Under the pieces are notes generated by a model. That model was not told where the DNA came from, did no database searches, and worked only from the letters and a program-made list of their open reading frames with translations. Below, one piece after another: positions 15,993-26,203 of a DNA stretch of 31,320 bases (position 1 is its first letter; each line of letters begins with the position of its first letter). The stretch comes from a virus. The stretch lies in the IMG/VR virus record IMGVR_UViG_3300042368_000355, positions 1-31,320 of that record; one strand, written 5' to 3'. Made by a program: the position numbers and the translations under genes.

Positions 15993-16000
15993 GACAGGAG
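15993..16000 (+). promoter_or_regulatory. GACAGGAG start box of the first early gene
   Basis: GACAGGAG followed by AATAAGAGA and ATG. Only AGGAG is explained by pairing to 16S rRNA. The full octamer recurs at 16428, 16942, 17356 and 18656 on the plus strand, each a short distance before a gene start, and at 25939-25946 on the minus strand. A GACGGGAG variant precedes the genes starting at 17551 and 24563. Confidence 0.7.
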
Positions 16001-16009
16001 AATAAGAGA

Positions 16010-16177
16010 ATGAGTTACAACCCAGAGACGCAACAGAGTAGCCTTCTTCACGATTTAGCCGACGCGATTACATCATTTCAAGCACTAGACCAAGCGGTCA
16101 GCGTACTAATCGAATGGGGCTTAGTAGATGCAGACTTAGGCGCGGAATACATCAAGGAAGCACAGGGGGCGAACTAA
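16010..16177 (+). CDS. Small acidic hypothetical protein, 55 residues
   Basis: First gene of the rightward early operon, starting ATGAGTTACAAC behind a GACAGGAG box. Soluble, helical (SSLLHDLADAITSFQALDQ), ending DLGAEYIKEAQGAN. Its TAA overlaps the next ATG as TAATG. No family recognised. Being first behind the control region it is a candidate for a host-takeover or regulatory peptide. Confidence 0.6.
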   Translation: MSYNPETQQSSLLHDLADAITSFQALDQAVSVLIEWGLVDADLGAEYIKEAQGAN

Positions 16178-16415: not shown

Positions 16416-16444
16416 TGCAAGACCTAAGACAGGAGAACGAAAGA

Positions 16445-16606
16445 ATGGCAAAATATTTCGAAATAGGTTGGGATAAGTTCGGGTTTTACATTGAAACCCG
16501 CTTGATTGACTTATACATAGACAATAGAGGCTTAGCCCTAGGCGTCGCCGTAATCGTAGCACTACGAGTTCGCAAGGTTCTAAAAATGCGAAAGGTGGCT
16601 AAATAA
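16445..16606 (+). CDS. Small protein with a short hydrophobic segment, 53 residues
   Basis: The start at 16445 is chosen because GACAGGAG sits 9 bases upstream. An in-frame ATG at 16406 lies inside a leader hairpin and lacks a ribosome site. Residues about 28-44 are hydrophobic (GLALGVAVIVAL) and are followed by a basic tail (RVRKVLKMRKVAK), like a membrane-anchored peptide with the basic end in the cytoplasm. Function unknown. Confidence 0.55.
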   Translation: MAKYFEIGWDKFGFYIETRLIDLYIDNRGLALGVAVIVALRVRKVLKMRKVAK

Positions 16607-16928: not shown

Positions 16929-16958
16929 AGAACGACAAAACGACAGGAGAACACAGAA

Positions 16959-17282
16959 ATGCCAGCACTAAACCAGAAAGACGCGGAGCACTACATAGCA
17001 AAACGCAGACAATTCACAGCATCAGCTTTGCGCGGTGATTACTGTAAAGGGTGGGTACCTGATGCGGGACGTCTAAACGCTGAAGAGTACACAAAACTAG
17101 ACCAAGCAGCCCGTTACGATTCAGAGTGGGTCTATGTAGTTTGGTCATATGACACCCCAATCGCTTGGCACGACTCAGAGGGCTGGTATGTAGTCGCGCA
17201 GAAGTTCAGCCAGACAACAAGCAAGCACCAAAACCTTACCCGCCGCGCTATTGCAGAGAGTTTAGAGGGGGCGACAGTATGA
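16959..17282 (+). CDS. Hypothetical protein, 107 residues
   Basis: Starts behind GACAGGAG. Composition: a helical N-terminus, then beta segments with many Trp/Tyr (DSEWVYVVWSYDTPIAWH, EGWYVVAQKF), then a helix (LTRRAIAESLEG). Proteins of this pattern are frequent in actinophage early regions and have no known role. The stop overlaps the next start as ATGA. Confidence 0.6.
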   Translation: MPALNQKDAEHYIAKRRQFTASALRGDYCKGWVPDAGRLNAEEYTKLDQAARYDSEWVYVVWSYDTPIAWHDSEGWYVVAQKFSQTTSKHQNLTRRAIAESLEGATV

Positions 17283-17371
17283 CCGCCTTAATTTTAGCCC
17301 TTGCACCTCTTGCCTTGCTATGTATTGCGGGCATACTATTAGACAACGACCTAACGACAGGAGAAAATTAA
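17279..17371 (+). CDS. 30-residue membrane peptide
   Basis: Begins at the ATG overlapping the previous TGA. Residues 2-22 are a single hydrophobic segment (TALILALAPLALLCIAGILL), followed by a short acidic tail. Such tiny membrane peptides in early operons can act in superinfection exclusion or holin regulation; nothing in the sequence decides this. Confidence 0.5.
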   Translation: MTALILALAPLALLCIAGILLDNDLTTGEN

Positions 17372-17372
17372 A

Positions 17373-17549
17373 ATGGCACAACTTTTAGAACTTATCAACA
17401 CAGACTCAACAAACGCCCTGAGGGCTTGGTGTTTTGGTGAAGCACTCAGAACACGAGACCGCGACGCGTTGCGTCTGTGGCTCTCCGAATGGGAGAAGAG
17501 CGACGCGAGAAAAGCAAAACTCAACAACGAAAAGACGGGAGAATTTTAA
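17373..17549 (+). CDS. Small hypothetical protein, 58 residues
   Basis: Starts at an ATG 9 bases after GACAGGAG (17356-17363). Helical and highly charged (ALRTRDRDALRLWLSEWEKS), with a Lys/Arg-rich end. No family recognised. Its last codons form the GACGGGAG box of the next gene. Confidence 0.55.
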   Translation: MAQLLELINTDSTNALRAWCFGEALRTRDRDALRLWLSEWEKSDARKAKLNNEKTGEF

Positions 17550-17550
17550 A

Positions 17551-17886
17551 ATGCAAACCAAAATGGAAGACCTTCACCGCCTTGTTGCGGTGCTTGAAGA
17601 ATGCGTAAGACCTTTATTAGAGGGCGAAGAAATAGAGTCGCCTTATGAATCAATGAGACGCCCGCACCTAGTTCTACAAGAGGGGAGCAAAACTTACGGG
17701 CGAGCCTTTCGGGTTCACTTTACGGGCGGAAGTAAGTACGGCTCGGGACATTGGGAACCGCGAGGGTTTAGCGATTACCTAGGCGGCACCAAGGCAGAAG
17801 CGGAGCGAACTCTGCGAAGTCTGATTGCGGGCATTCGTACAGGCTCAATGATTGCAGAGAAACTAGAGGAAGAAGGCAACGAGTGA
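17551..17886 (+). CDS. Hypothetical protein, 111 residues
   Basis: The start at 17551 is chosen because of GACGGGAG at 17534-17541; an upstream in-frame start at 17434 would sit inside the preceding gene. N-terminal helix (MEDLHRLVAVLEECVRPLL), a central beta region rich in Gly and aromatics (RAFRVHFTGGSKYGSG), and a C-terminal helix. No family recognised. The stop overlaps the next GTG start. Confidence 0.55.
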   Translation: MQTKMEDLHRLVAVLEECVRPLLEGEEIESPYESMRRPHLVLQEGSKTYGRAFRVHFTGGSKYGSGHWEPRGFSDYLGGTKAEAERTLRSLIAGIRTGSMIAEKLEEEGNE

Positions 17887-18546: not shown

Positions 18547-18668
18547 GTTGGTCAGAGTTAGCAGAGTTGACACACGAAACACAGGTAGATAAGTTTGGTT
18601 GGTGTATGTGTGAAGACACAGAGCCACACGAATACCCATACGGCGATTGCCCAAAGACAGGAGAATGA
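18525..18668 (+). CDS. Small Cys-containing acidic protein, 47 residues
   Basis: Starts within the end of the nuclease gene, behind GACAGGAA, a near match to the early start box. The C-terminal half has C27-M-C29, H35 and C42, a possible zinc site. Acidic N-terminus (MEQEEQLSWSELAEL). No family recognised. Its last bases include the GACAGGAG box of the next gene. Confidence 0.5.
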   Translation: MEQEEQLSWSELAELTHETQVDKFGWCMCEDTEPHEYPYGDCPKTGE

Positions 18669-25154: not shown

Positions 25155-25763
25155 TTATTTGTCCTTCGTGAATTGGCAATGTTCTGTGAGTCCACAGAAA
25201 TTGCACGATTGTAGGTTCGGTAGAAATATACCAGCCTTGCGTGCTTTGTCAAAGCCATCAACAAAGTATTCAAGCGTGTCCTGTGTATACCTACTTAGGT
25301 CAATCATCTCTCCTGTCCCCGACTCACGAGACATCCAGTAGTTTCCTAGATTGACTTCAACACCCAGCATCATCTCGACTCCTATTTTGTAGAAGCCCAA
25401 CTGAAGGTCAGACTGAGGACGTGCACGAGAAGTCTTTAAGTCAACGATAACTAACTTGCCGTCAACCTCAAAGATTCTATCGATGAACATCTTCACTGGT
25501 ACTCCAGCGATGACTGGGTTTAACTCTAACTCGATAGCCTTGGCACCCTGAGGTGTTGTCCAGAGTTTCCAGTTAGGGTTGTTCTTGCGCCATAGGATGT
25601 AGTTGTCAGTCCATATGGAACCTTGTTCGTACCACCAAGCAGCATCTTCCTTGTTAGGGTTGAGTTTAGTTGCTCGTCCTGCTACTCGTGCAGTGGTGAA
25701 GTCAAGACCTTCGGTCTCCTTACGCCACGCTTGTTCCCATAAAGGGTTAGTTGTCATAGTCAT
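25155..25763 (-). CDS. Cas4/AddB-like PD-(D/E)XK exonuclease, catalytic part (second frame of a split gene)
   Basis: 202 residues. Active site: D95 (MFIDRIFEV), D108-x-K110 (IVDLKTS), and QLGFY at 121-125, the Q-x3-Y motif of RecB/Cas4-family nucleases. Three Cys of the 4Fe-4S cluster lie near the end: C187, C190 and C196. The fourth Cys is in the upstream reading frame, so this part alone cannot make a normal cluster. Acts on DNA ends in recombination or replication. No strong ribosome site precedes its ATG. Confidence 0.85.
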   Translation of the reverse strand: MTMTTNPLWEQAWRKETEGLDFTTARVAGRATKLNPNKEDAAWWYEQGSIWTDNYILWRKNNPNWKLWTTPQGAKAIELELNPVIAGVPVKMFIDRIFEVDGKLVIVDLKTSRARPQSDLQLGFYKIGVEMMLGVEVNLGNYWMSRESGTGEMIDLSRYTQDTLEYFVDGFDKARKAGIFLPNLQSCNFCGLTEHCQFTKDK

Positions 25764-25932
25764 ACAACTCTGCCGCTAAGTGAAATGCTCGTCCGCCTGC
25801 TGACCAGATGGATGGTTCCTCTGGTACCTGAAGTAATCTACCTAGGTAGTACTGATATCCACAGGTCAGGTAAGTGGTAAATGCTGAGTAGGATATATGT
25901 GCTGGCAGTTCATAACTGTCCAATTTAATCAT
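25747..25932 (-). CDS. Cas4/AddB-like exonuclease, N-terminal part (first frame of a split gene)
   Basis: 61 residues, first gene of the leftward replication operon. ISYSAFTTYLTCGYQYYLG carries C24, the first cluster cysteine of Cas4/AddB nucleases, and GRAFHLAAE carries H51 of the usual G-x3-H motif. It ends just as the second frame begins (17-base overlap, +1 relation). It starts behind GACAGGAGAAGTCG. Both parts together would give a full-length, complete nuclease of about 260 residues. Confidence 0.8.
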   Translation of the reverse strand: MIKLDSYELPAHISYSAFTTYLTCGYQYYLGRLLQVPEEPSIWSAGGRAFHLAAELYDYDN

Positions 25933-25938
25933 CGACTT

Positions 25939-25946
25939 CTCCTGTC
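25939..25946 (-). promoter_or_regulatory. GACAGGAG start box of the replication operon
   Basis: Minus-strand GACAGGAG followed by AAGTCG and ATG. It is identical to the box used by the rightward early genes, although this operon is on the other strand. It is also exactly complementary to eight loop bases of the hairpin at 25957-26010. Confidence 0.65.
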
Positions 25947-25956
25947 TGAAAGTTGT

Positions 25957-26010
25957 TACATAGTCCTCCCTTAGAGGACAGGAGGGTACTCGATAAGGGA
26001 GAACTATGTA
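25957..26010 (-). promoter_or_regulatory. Long leader hairpin with anti-Shine-Dalgarno loop
   Basis: Arms of 17 bases (25957-25973 and 25994-26010) pair with a single mismatch. The 20-base loop, read on the minus strand, contains CTCCTGTC, perfectly complementary to the GACAGGAG box of the nuclease gene about 30 bases downstream. A loop-to-start-box pairing would hide the ribosome site of the first replication gene. Confidence 0.55.
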
Positions 26011-26097
26011 AATCTATTTAGTTATTATTATATAATTATATATATAATATCGGCGCTTCGCGCCTTATATTAATTAATATTAATAATTAATAATCTG

Positions 26098-26125
26098 AGT
26101 ATACACACAACCGACTTGACTGTAA
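26098..26125 (-). promoter_or_regulatory. Candidate sigma-70 promoter of the replication operon
   Basis: Minus strand: TTACAG (26125-26120), 16 bases, TATACT (26103-26098). The -10 element is good and the -35 is weak. It lies between the late terminator and the leader hairpin, pointing at the replication genes, which is the only place a promoter for them is expected. Confidence 0.4.
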
Positions 26126-26159: not shown

Positions 26160-26203
26160 AAAAAGACCCCCAAGCCATAGGTAATCCTATGACCTGAGGG
26201 TCT
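26160..26203 (-). terminator. Rho-independent terminator of the tail/lysis operon
   Basis: Minus strand: AGACCC ... GGGTCT outer stem (26198-26203 with 26164-26169), with the inner hairpin CATAGG-ATTA-CCTATG (26176-26191), followed by TTTTT. It lies 40 bases after the last leftward lysis gene and so ends that transcript before the replication operon. Confidence 0.75.

Follow-up and report, generated by a model that had tools for sequence, protein, structure and literature searches.

The locus considered here raises the question of what is controlled by a hairpin in the leader of a phage replication operon whose loop is complementary to a ribosome-binding box found before many genes of the same phage: the operon that it precedes, or the boxed genes at large. 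The window, by which we mean the whole 31,320-nucleotide stretch analysed, comprises positions 1 to 31,320 of IMG/VR record IMGVR_UViG_3300042368_000355.

The leader hairpin and the start boxes of the window

The hairpin occupies positions 25956–26011 on the minus strand, where folding, covariation and a covariance model match all place it. Its outer helix of 18 bp pairs the 5′ arm TTACATAGTTCTCCCTTA (26011–25994) with the 3′ arm TAAGGGAGGACTATGTAA (25973–25956), and above it lie a 2-nt bulge (TC, 25993–25992), a 3-bp inner helix (GAG at 25991–25989 with CTC at 25976–25974) and a 12-nt loop, made up of TACC (25988–25985) and then CTCCTGTC (25984–25977). A preliminary description of this DNA had reported a 17-base inverted repeat; the repeat is present, but its arms are 18 nt long and 94% complementary, and the inner helix and bulge belong to the structure as well. 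RNA folding of positions 25915–26020 gives −32.3 kcal/mol (z −3.5). An intrinsic terminator, that is, a GC-rich hairpin with a T run, was considered for the window hairpin and rejected, as it has no T run and is absent from the intrinsic-terminator listing.

Read as RNA, the last eight bases of the loop are 5′-CUCCUGUC-3′, the exact complement of the box GACAGGAG at 25946–25939 on the same strand, which precedes the first open reading frame (ORF; start codon ATG at 25932) on the transcript that includes the hairpin. The two lie 30 nt apart, just as had been described. That first ORF (25747–25932, minus strand) is the N-terminal piece of a split PD-(D/E)XK exonuclease, the main remaining part of which (25155–25763, minus strand) served as the query for collecting relatives. 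A DnaB-like helicase gene also follows in the operon, and with the exonuclease genes it makes the earlier label of replication operon a fair one.

Some features of this operon are recorded here in their own right. Within 25155–25932 (minus strand) the 61-aa N-terminal ORF and the 202-aa main ORF of the exonuclease overlap in different frames. In three relatives (L037, L067 and L072) the two parts are set apart by intervening DNA that contains additional ORFs, so the exonuclease looks truly split, and a frameshift was rejected. In many relatives, L034, L036 and L049 among them, the first ORF after the leader encodes a small acidic coiled-coil-like protein of about 41–60 aa. A copy of GACAGGAG followed by an ATG at 25317 (minus strand) also lies inside the exonuclease coding sequence (ESGTGEM), and may be a coincidence or an internal start.

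The preliminary description further held that the box is common to many genes and that its match to the loop is unlikely to be chance, and both statements are borne out. On the plus strand GACAGGAG stands, each time with a 9-nt gap, at 15993–16000 before ORF 16010–16177, at 16428–16435 before ORF 16445–16606, at 16942–16949 before ORF 16959–17282 and at 17356–17363 before ORF 17373–17549; a fifth ORF (17551–17886) has, at the same spacing, the variant GACGGGAG (17534–17541), which G.U pairing tolerates. All five are small. A further GACAGGAG at 18656–18663 (plus strand), with an ATG 6 nt downstream, marks a candidate gene only. The 7-mer GACAGGA and the overlapping ACAGGAG precede seven ORF starts, the most among all 16,384 7-mers in the window, and so the loop/box match is not a chance one.

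Directly upstream of the stem is an AT-rich segment (26012–26050, minus strand), which in several relatives carries TAYAATAGATT; this resembles a −10 element and would place the 5′ end of the RNA at the base of the stem. A promoter consensus scan of the leader gave two matches, no more than in shuffled sequences. An intrinsic-terminator-like hairpin of the upstream unit (26164–26203, minus strand) is consistent with a new transcript start between that point and the leader. Many relatives, though not all, keep ahead of the leader an AT-rich stretch with the palindrome GGCGCGAAGCGCC (26018–26099 in the window), a possible replication origin or bidirectional terminator.

Conservation of the hairpin and joint change of loop and boxes

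Among relatives gathered through the exonuclease the hairpin is present wherever the contig reaches far enough, and an exonuclease alignment used as query returned the identical 80 loci to those of the single-protein query. In a structure-blind MAFFT alignment of 36 leaders, 96.1% of cells are paired and 11 of the 21 base pairs have changed on both sides. The corresponding values for 46 distinct model-aligned sequences, an alignment that, unlike the independent MAFFT one, was fitted to the structure, are 98.9% and 15 of 21; none of 500 shuffles of this alignment scored as high, and slid controls were 45–50% paired. The covariance model scores about 90 bits on the minus strand and 34.7 on the plus, which identifies the RNA of the minus strand as the one conserved. 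Nineteen of 20 phage records searched whole hold one copy, and the other holds two, possibly by way of a duplicated end. By these comparative measures the hairpin is a conserved RNA structure, and no Rfam family matches the window or its relatives at the gathering threshold.

The loop CUCCUGUC is identical in every homologue examined, even in those with a wholly different stem (L047/L062, L037 and L144). The first homologue set was collected with the help of the loop 8-mer, and L037/L038/L040 and L144 were found with the covariance model, the score of which includes the loop; the fixed loop is also present in homologues first found by that model or by the box alone. The preliminary description had counted a kept stem with unrelated loops as evidence against pairing; the opposite is seen, invariant loops on stems that change.

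It had also proposed a search for compensatory changes between loop and start box, and these exist between lineages. In a large sister lineage, the whiB-linked loci L421–L432 lack the hairpin that relatives with the first loop (type A) have after whiB (see below), and have in its place one of the same TT-bulge and GAG/CTC build with the loop UUCCAGUC (type B). As predicted, no 7-mer is more enriched ahead of ATGs than GACTGGA, in this set and in a second one, and no GACAGGA start boxes occur in the type B sets. In a kinase-based collection the loop UUCCAGUC occupies the same place in 61 of 66 DNMK-linked loci, on many unrelated stems. GACTGGA ranks first of 9,439 motifs in the pooled type B sequences, though it is not the top motif in some subclusters and single contigs contain only two or three type B boxes.

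The two groups part cleanly at box position 4. Among GACNGGA starts that go with the first loop the counts are A163, G18, T9 and C0 (GAC[A/G]GGA, 181 of 190), and among those that go with a second or third loop all 62 are GACTGGA (A0, G0, T62, C0). Fisher's test for A versus T gives p = 2e-47 with the starts treated as independent, a value that is too small given that sequences within a group are related; the direction and completeness of the change are clear. The type B loop usually has another C after it, and an extra 5′ G is found in 44 of 96 type B boxes versus 12 of 197 type A boxes. All of these starts are predicted ORF starts, on contigs that are often fragments. Taken across lineages, the pairs CTCCTGTC/GACAGGAG and TTCCAGTC/GACTGGA are a compensatory change, and essentially represent one or a few evolutionary events. 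In the one pair tried, no similarity was found between boxed genes of types A and B. A third loop type, ACCAGUCC, is seen near the 3′ end of the kinase gene in a few contigs (L502–L504, minus strand), and, suggestively, L503 has GGACTGG immediately ahead of three starts that lie on the strand of whiB.

The box also differs from what the host ribosome would favour. Host 16S genes were located with a 16S probe sequence, and only matches that proved to be acI/Planktophila were used, the others being from unrelated organisms; a search through the exonuclease for prophage-bearing host genomes found none. The 16S 3′ end is CUCCUUUC (also given as GGATCACCTCCTTTC) in all five of the acI genomes, which include two named Ca. 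Planktophila, so the perfect host box is GAAAGGAG. The C by which GACAGGAG departs from GAAAGGAG faces the G of the loop. At this position (3) the 69 distinct starts of 10 phages have C64, T3, G1 and A1, and the GANAGGAG starts of the five host genomes A28, C10, G10 and T7. GAC precedes RGGAG at 52 of 171 phage starts and is not among the triplets listed for 44 host starts, and the exact box with an ATG occurs zero to three times per host genome of 1.1–1.5 Mb. Predicted pairing energies are −13.8 kcal/mol for the loop with GACAGGAG, −7.6 for the loop with GAAAGGAG and −15.8 for 16S rRNA with GAAAGGAG. These sequences lead us to conclude that it is the loop, and not host 16S rRNA, to which the box is adapted. 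Predicted Planktophila starts with a strong Shine-Dalgarno sequence are few (44 RGGAG in 400 kb of host genomes G019–G020, loci L215–L234), and per kb far below those of the phages.

A second location and the proposed mode of action

A scan of viral contigs for the box only picked up many, most of them unrelated. When 24 box-found contigs were searched whole with the hairpin model, one strong and six weak matches resulted, and the six weak ones represent a hairpin of another build that carries the loop of the window hairpin. It stands 36–84 nt after whiB, where the boxed operon reaches its 3′ end; on its other side is a gene for a deoxynucleotide kinase, convergent with whiB, and no boxed gene follows. 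It is present in 62 of 75 whiB-linked loci, and of the 201 GAx boxes in these loci 188 share the strand of whiB. Directly upstream of this hairpin, at 1470–1510 of L356 and at the equivalent places in L360 and L361, lies what may be another one (ACCAGCCCC..GGGG..GGTTGGT).

With no neighbouring downstream box at the whiB site, pairing with one is impossible there, which favours action in trans or at long range within the same transcript. The same preference follows from leaders in which the loop is fixed and the hairpin's own box has drifted to a wobble or poor match (GACGGAGG, which pairs poorly with it, and GATGGGAG). Purely local control in cis, in which the loop would pair only with the box 30 nt downstream as an H-type pseudoknot and tune the replication operon, agrees with the exact complementarity of loop and own box in the window and most close relatives. 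It is nevertheless improbable in the face of the whiB location and the drifting boxes; moreover, the box is common to many other genes, and the 5 nt that separate the 21-bp stem from the box in some leaders are probably too short for such a pairing unless the stem frays. The preliminary description left a choice between cis and trans action of an anti-Shine-Dalgarno hairpin. The invariant loop and the joint change of loop and box support the hairpin's proposed nature, and of the two modes the data point to action in trans (or at long range) in preference to pairing confined to the adjacent box.

Our preferred reading, which we hold to be very probable, is that a transcript-embedded anti-Shine-Dalgarno RNA shuts off a regulon of boxed early genes, mainly in trans. 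Ribosome binding at a set of phage genes would be blocked by the pairing of their extended Shine-Dalgarno box, 5′-GACAGGAG-3′, with the loop 5′-CUCCUGUC-3′; the pairing itself is strongly supported by the sequence comparisons. In the window group this set includes the first gene of the hairpin's transcript and small genes of unassigned function, and in relatives boxed genes include those for an SprT-like protein and a glutamine amidotransferase. The antisense hairpin would be carried in the replication operon leader in the window group, and after whiB at the end of a boxed operon in relatives. Since it forms one segment of a transcript, its level would reflect that transcript's abundance, and as it accumulated the boxed early genes would be turned down in trans, its own boxed gene included. 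The outcome could be simple feedback or a switch from early expression to replication. Three points are our inference: the production and accessibility of the RNA, a repressive effect of pairing on the targets (as opposed to, say, a stabilising one), and the early timing of shut-off.

Three other readings fare less well than local control. The box might be the site of a phage protein, either a repressor of translation or a nuclease like RegB, which would cleave GGAG within the ribosome-binding sites of early genes, with the hairpin unrelated or itself protein-bound. T4 RegB and RegA do act on early-gene initiation regions (PMC3014915), and an A-rich stretch often follows the boxes, as with RegB sites; we consider this quite unlikely nonetheless, for the loop is the complement and not a copy of the box, the two change together, and the substitutions seen in GACAGGAG include A to G and C to T, both of which preserve pairing with the loop through G.U. 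We give slightly less credence still to an ordinary terminator or 5′ stabiliser hairpin whose loop matches the box by coincidence or through a shared likeness to the 16S 3′ end. Type B hairpins do end in U-rich tracts, like intrinsic terminators, and termination may be an additional role, and the loop resembles the 16S anti-Shine-Dalgarno; however, invariant loops are not expected of terminators, loop and box share the one base that departs from 16S (G/C, not U/A), and type B shows the match again in a new sequence. Least credible is a DNA operator, with one 8-mer as the binding site both at starts and, inverted, in the leader. Mycobacteriophage stoperators are a precedent for this, and the loop as DNA is indeed the 8-mer inverted; but conservation of the stem, with its G.U pairs on one strand, is that of an RNA, and the 8-mer holds Shine-Dalgarno spacing at starts and stays in the hairpin loop through wholesale stem replacement.

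Beyond the shut-off itself we suggest, tentatively and as less likely than not, a broader scheme in which one hairpin RNA per genome would silence all genes with a matching box through lineage-specific codes, and would also serve RNA-based superinfection control. The codes proposed are A, CUCCUGUC/GACAGGAG; B, UUCCAGUC(C)/(G)GACTGGA; and perhaps C, ACCAGUCC/GGACTGG. Since the code differs between lineages, the RNA could silence the early genes of a co-infecting phage of the same code.

Few phages are known in which an antisense RNA controls translation, and the targets in each case usually number one or two. In the present phages one unvarying loop is set against an entire group of starts, and the box has moved from host ribosome preference toward the loop; types A and B amount to a swap experiment already made by evolution. 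An RNA-run early-gene switch would be directly testable in cultured phages of Ca. Planktophila, which is among the most abundant freshwater bacterial groups. The work also offers a recipe for finding such regulons, namely start motifs that mismatch the host anti-Shine-Dalgarno yet match a structured loop.

Comparison with known systems

The nearest cultured relatives are the Planktophila phages LanE43AprE7 and AprF5, with about 90% DNA identity over the region. They have the same hairpin and the same boxes as the window in deposited records that are unannotated, and the accessible part of their isolation paper makes no mention of such an RNA; nor did we find a description of one in the open-licence literature.

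In its proposed action the hairpin RNA resembles two kinds of known RNA. The C4 antisense RNA of phages P1 and P7 lies inside a longer transcript, and its hairpin loops pair with target mRNA and partly occlude the ribosome-binding site (PMC5320573). The present RNA would likewise be a phage RNA embedded in a longer transcript, with a loop that pairs with a ribosome-binding site. C4, however, folds into three stem-loops with two target loops, is processed by RNase P and takes part in phage immunity, whereas here there is one hairpin with one conserved loop and many starts. The Rfam C4 model has no match at the gathering threshold in the window or its relatives, and is not among the weak matches of the leader.

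In RsaA a C-rich unpaired motif pairs with the Shine-Dalgarno sequence and blocks initiation (PMC3961350), and the likeness to staphylococcal sRNAs of the RsaA/RNAIII type lies in this use of a C-rich motif against a Shine-Dalgarno sequence. Two features of the class of C-rich-loop anti-Shine-Dalgarno RNAs are found here, an unpaired complementary C-rich motif and compensatory change of motif and target. Those RNAs, though, are host sRNAs with ordinary targets, unlike the present RNA, which is inside mRNAs and whose targets would be phage genes with an extended box off the host consensus. The RsaA model (RF01816) scores 22.8 bits against a gathering threshold of 50. The hairpin RNA resembles C4 and RsaA-like RNAs and belongs to none of the Rfam families tested.

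T4 encodes RegB and RegA, which inactivate many early messages by acting where translation of these is initiated (PMC3014915). That system is protein based, and the regulator proposed here is an RNA; its likeness to RegB and RegA would be one of purpose, and its likeness to C4 and RsaA one of action.
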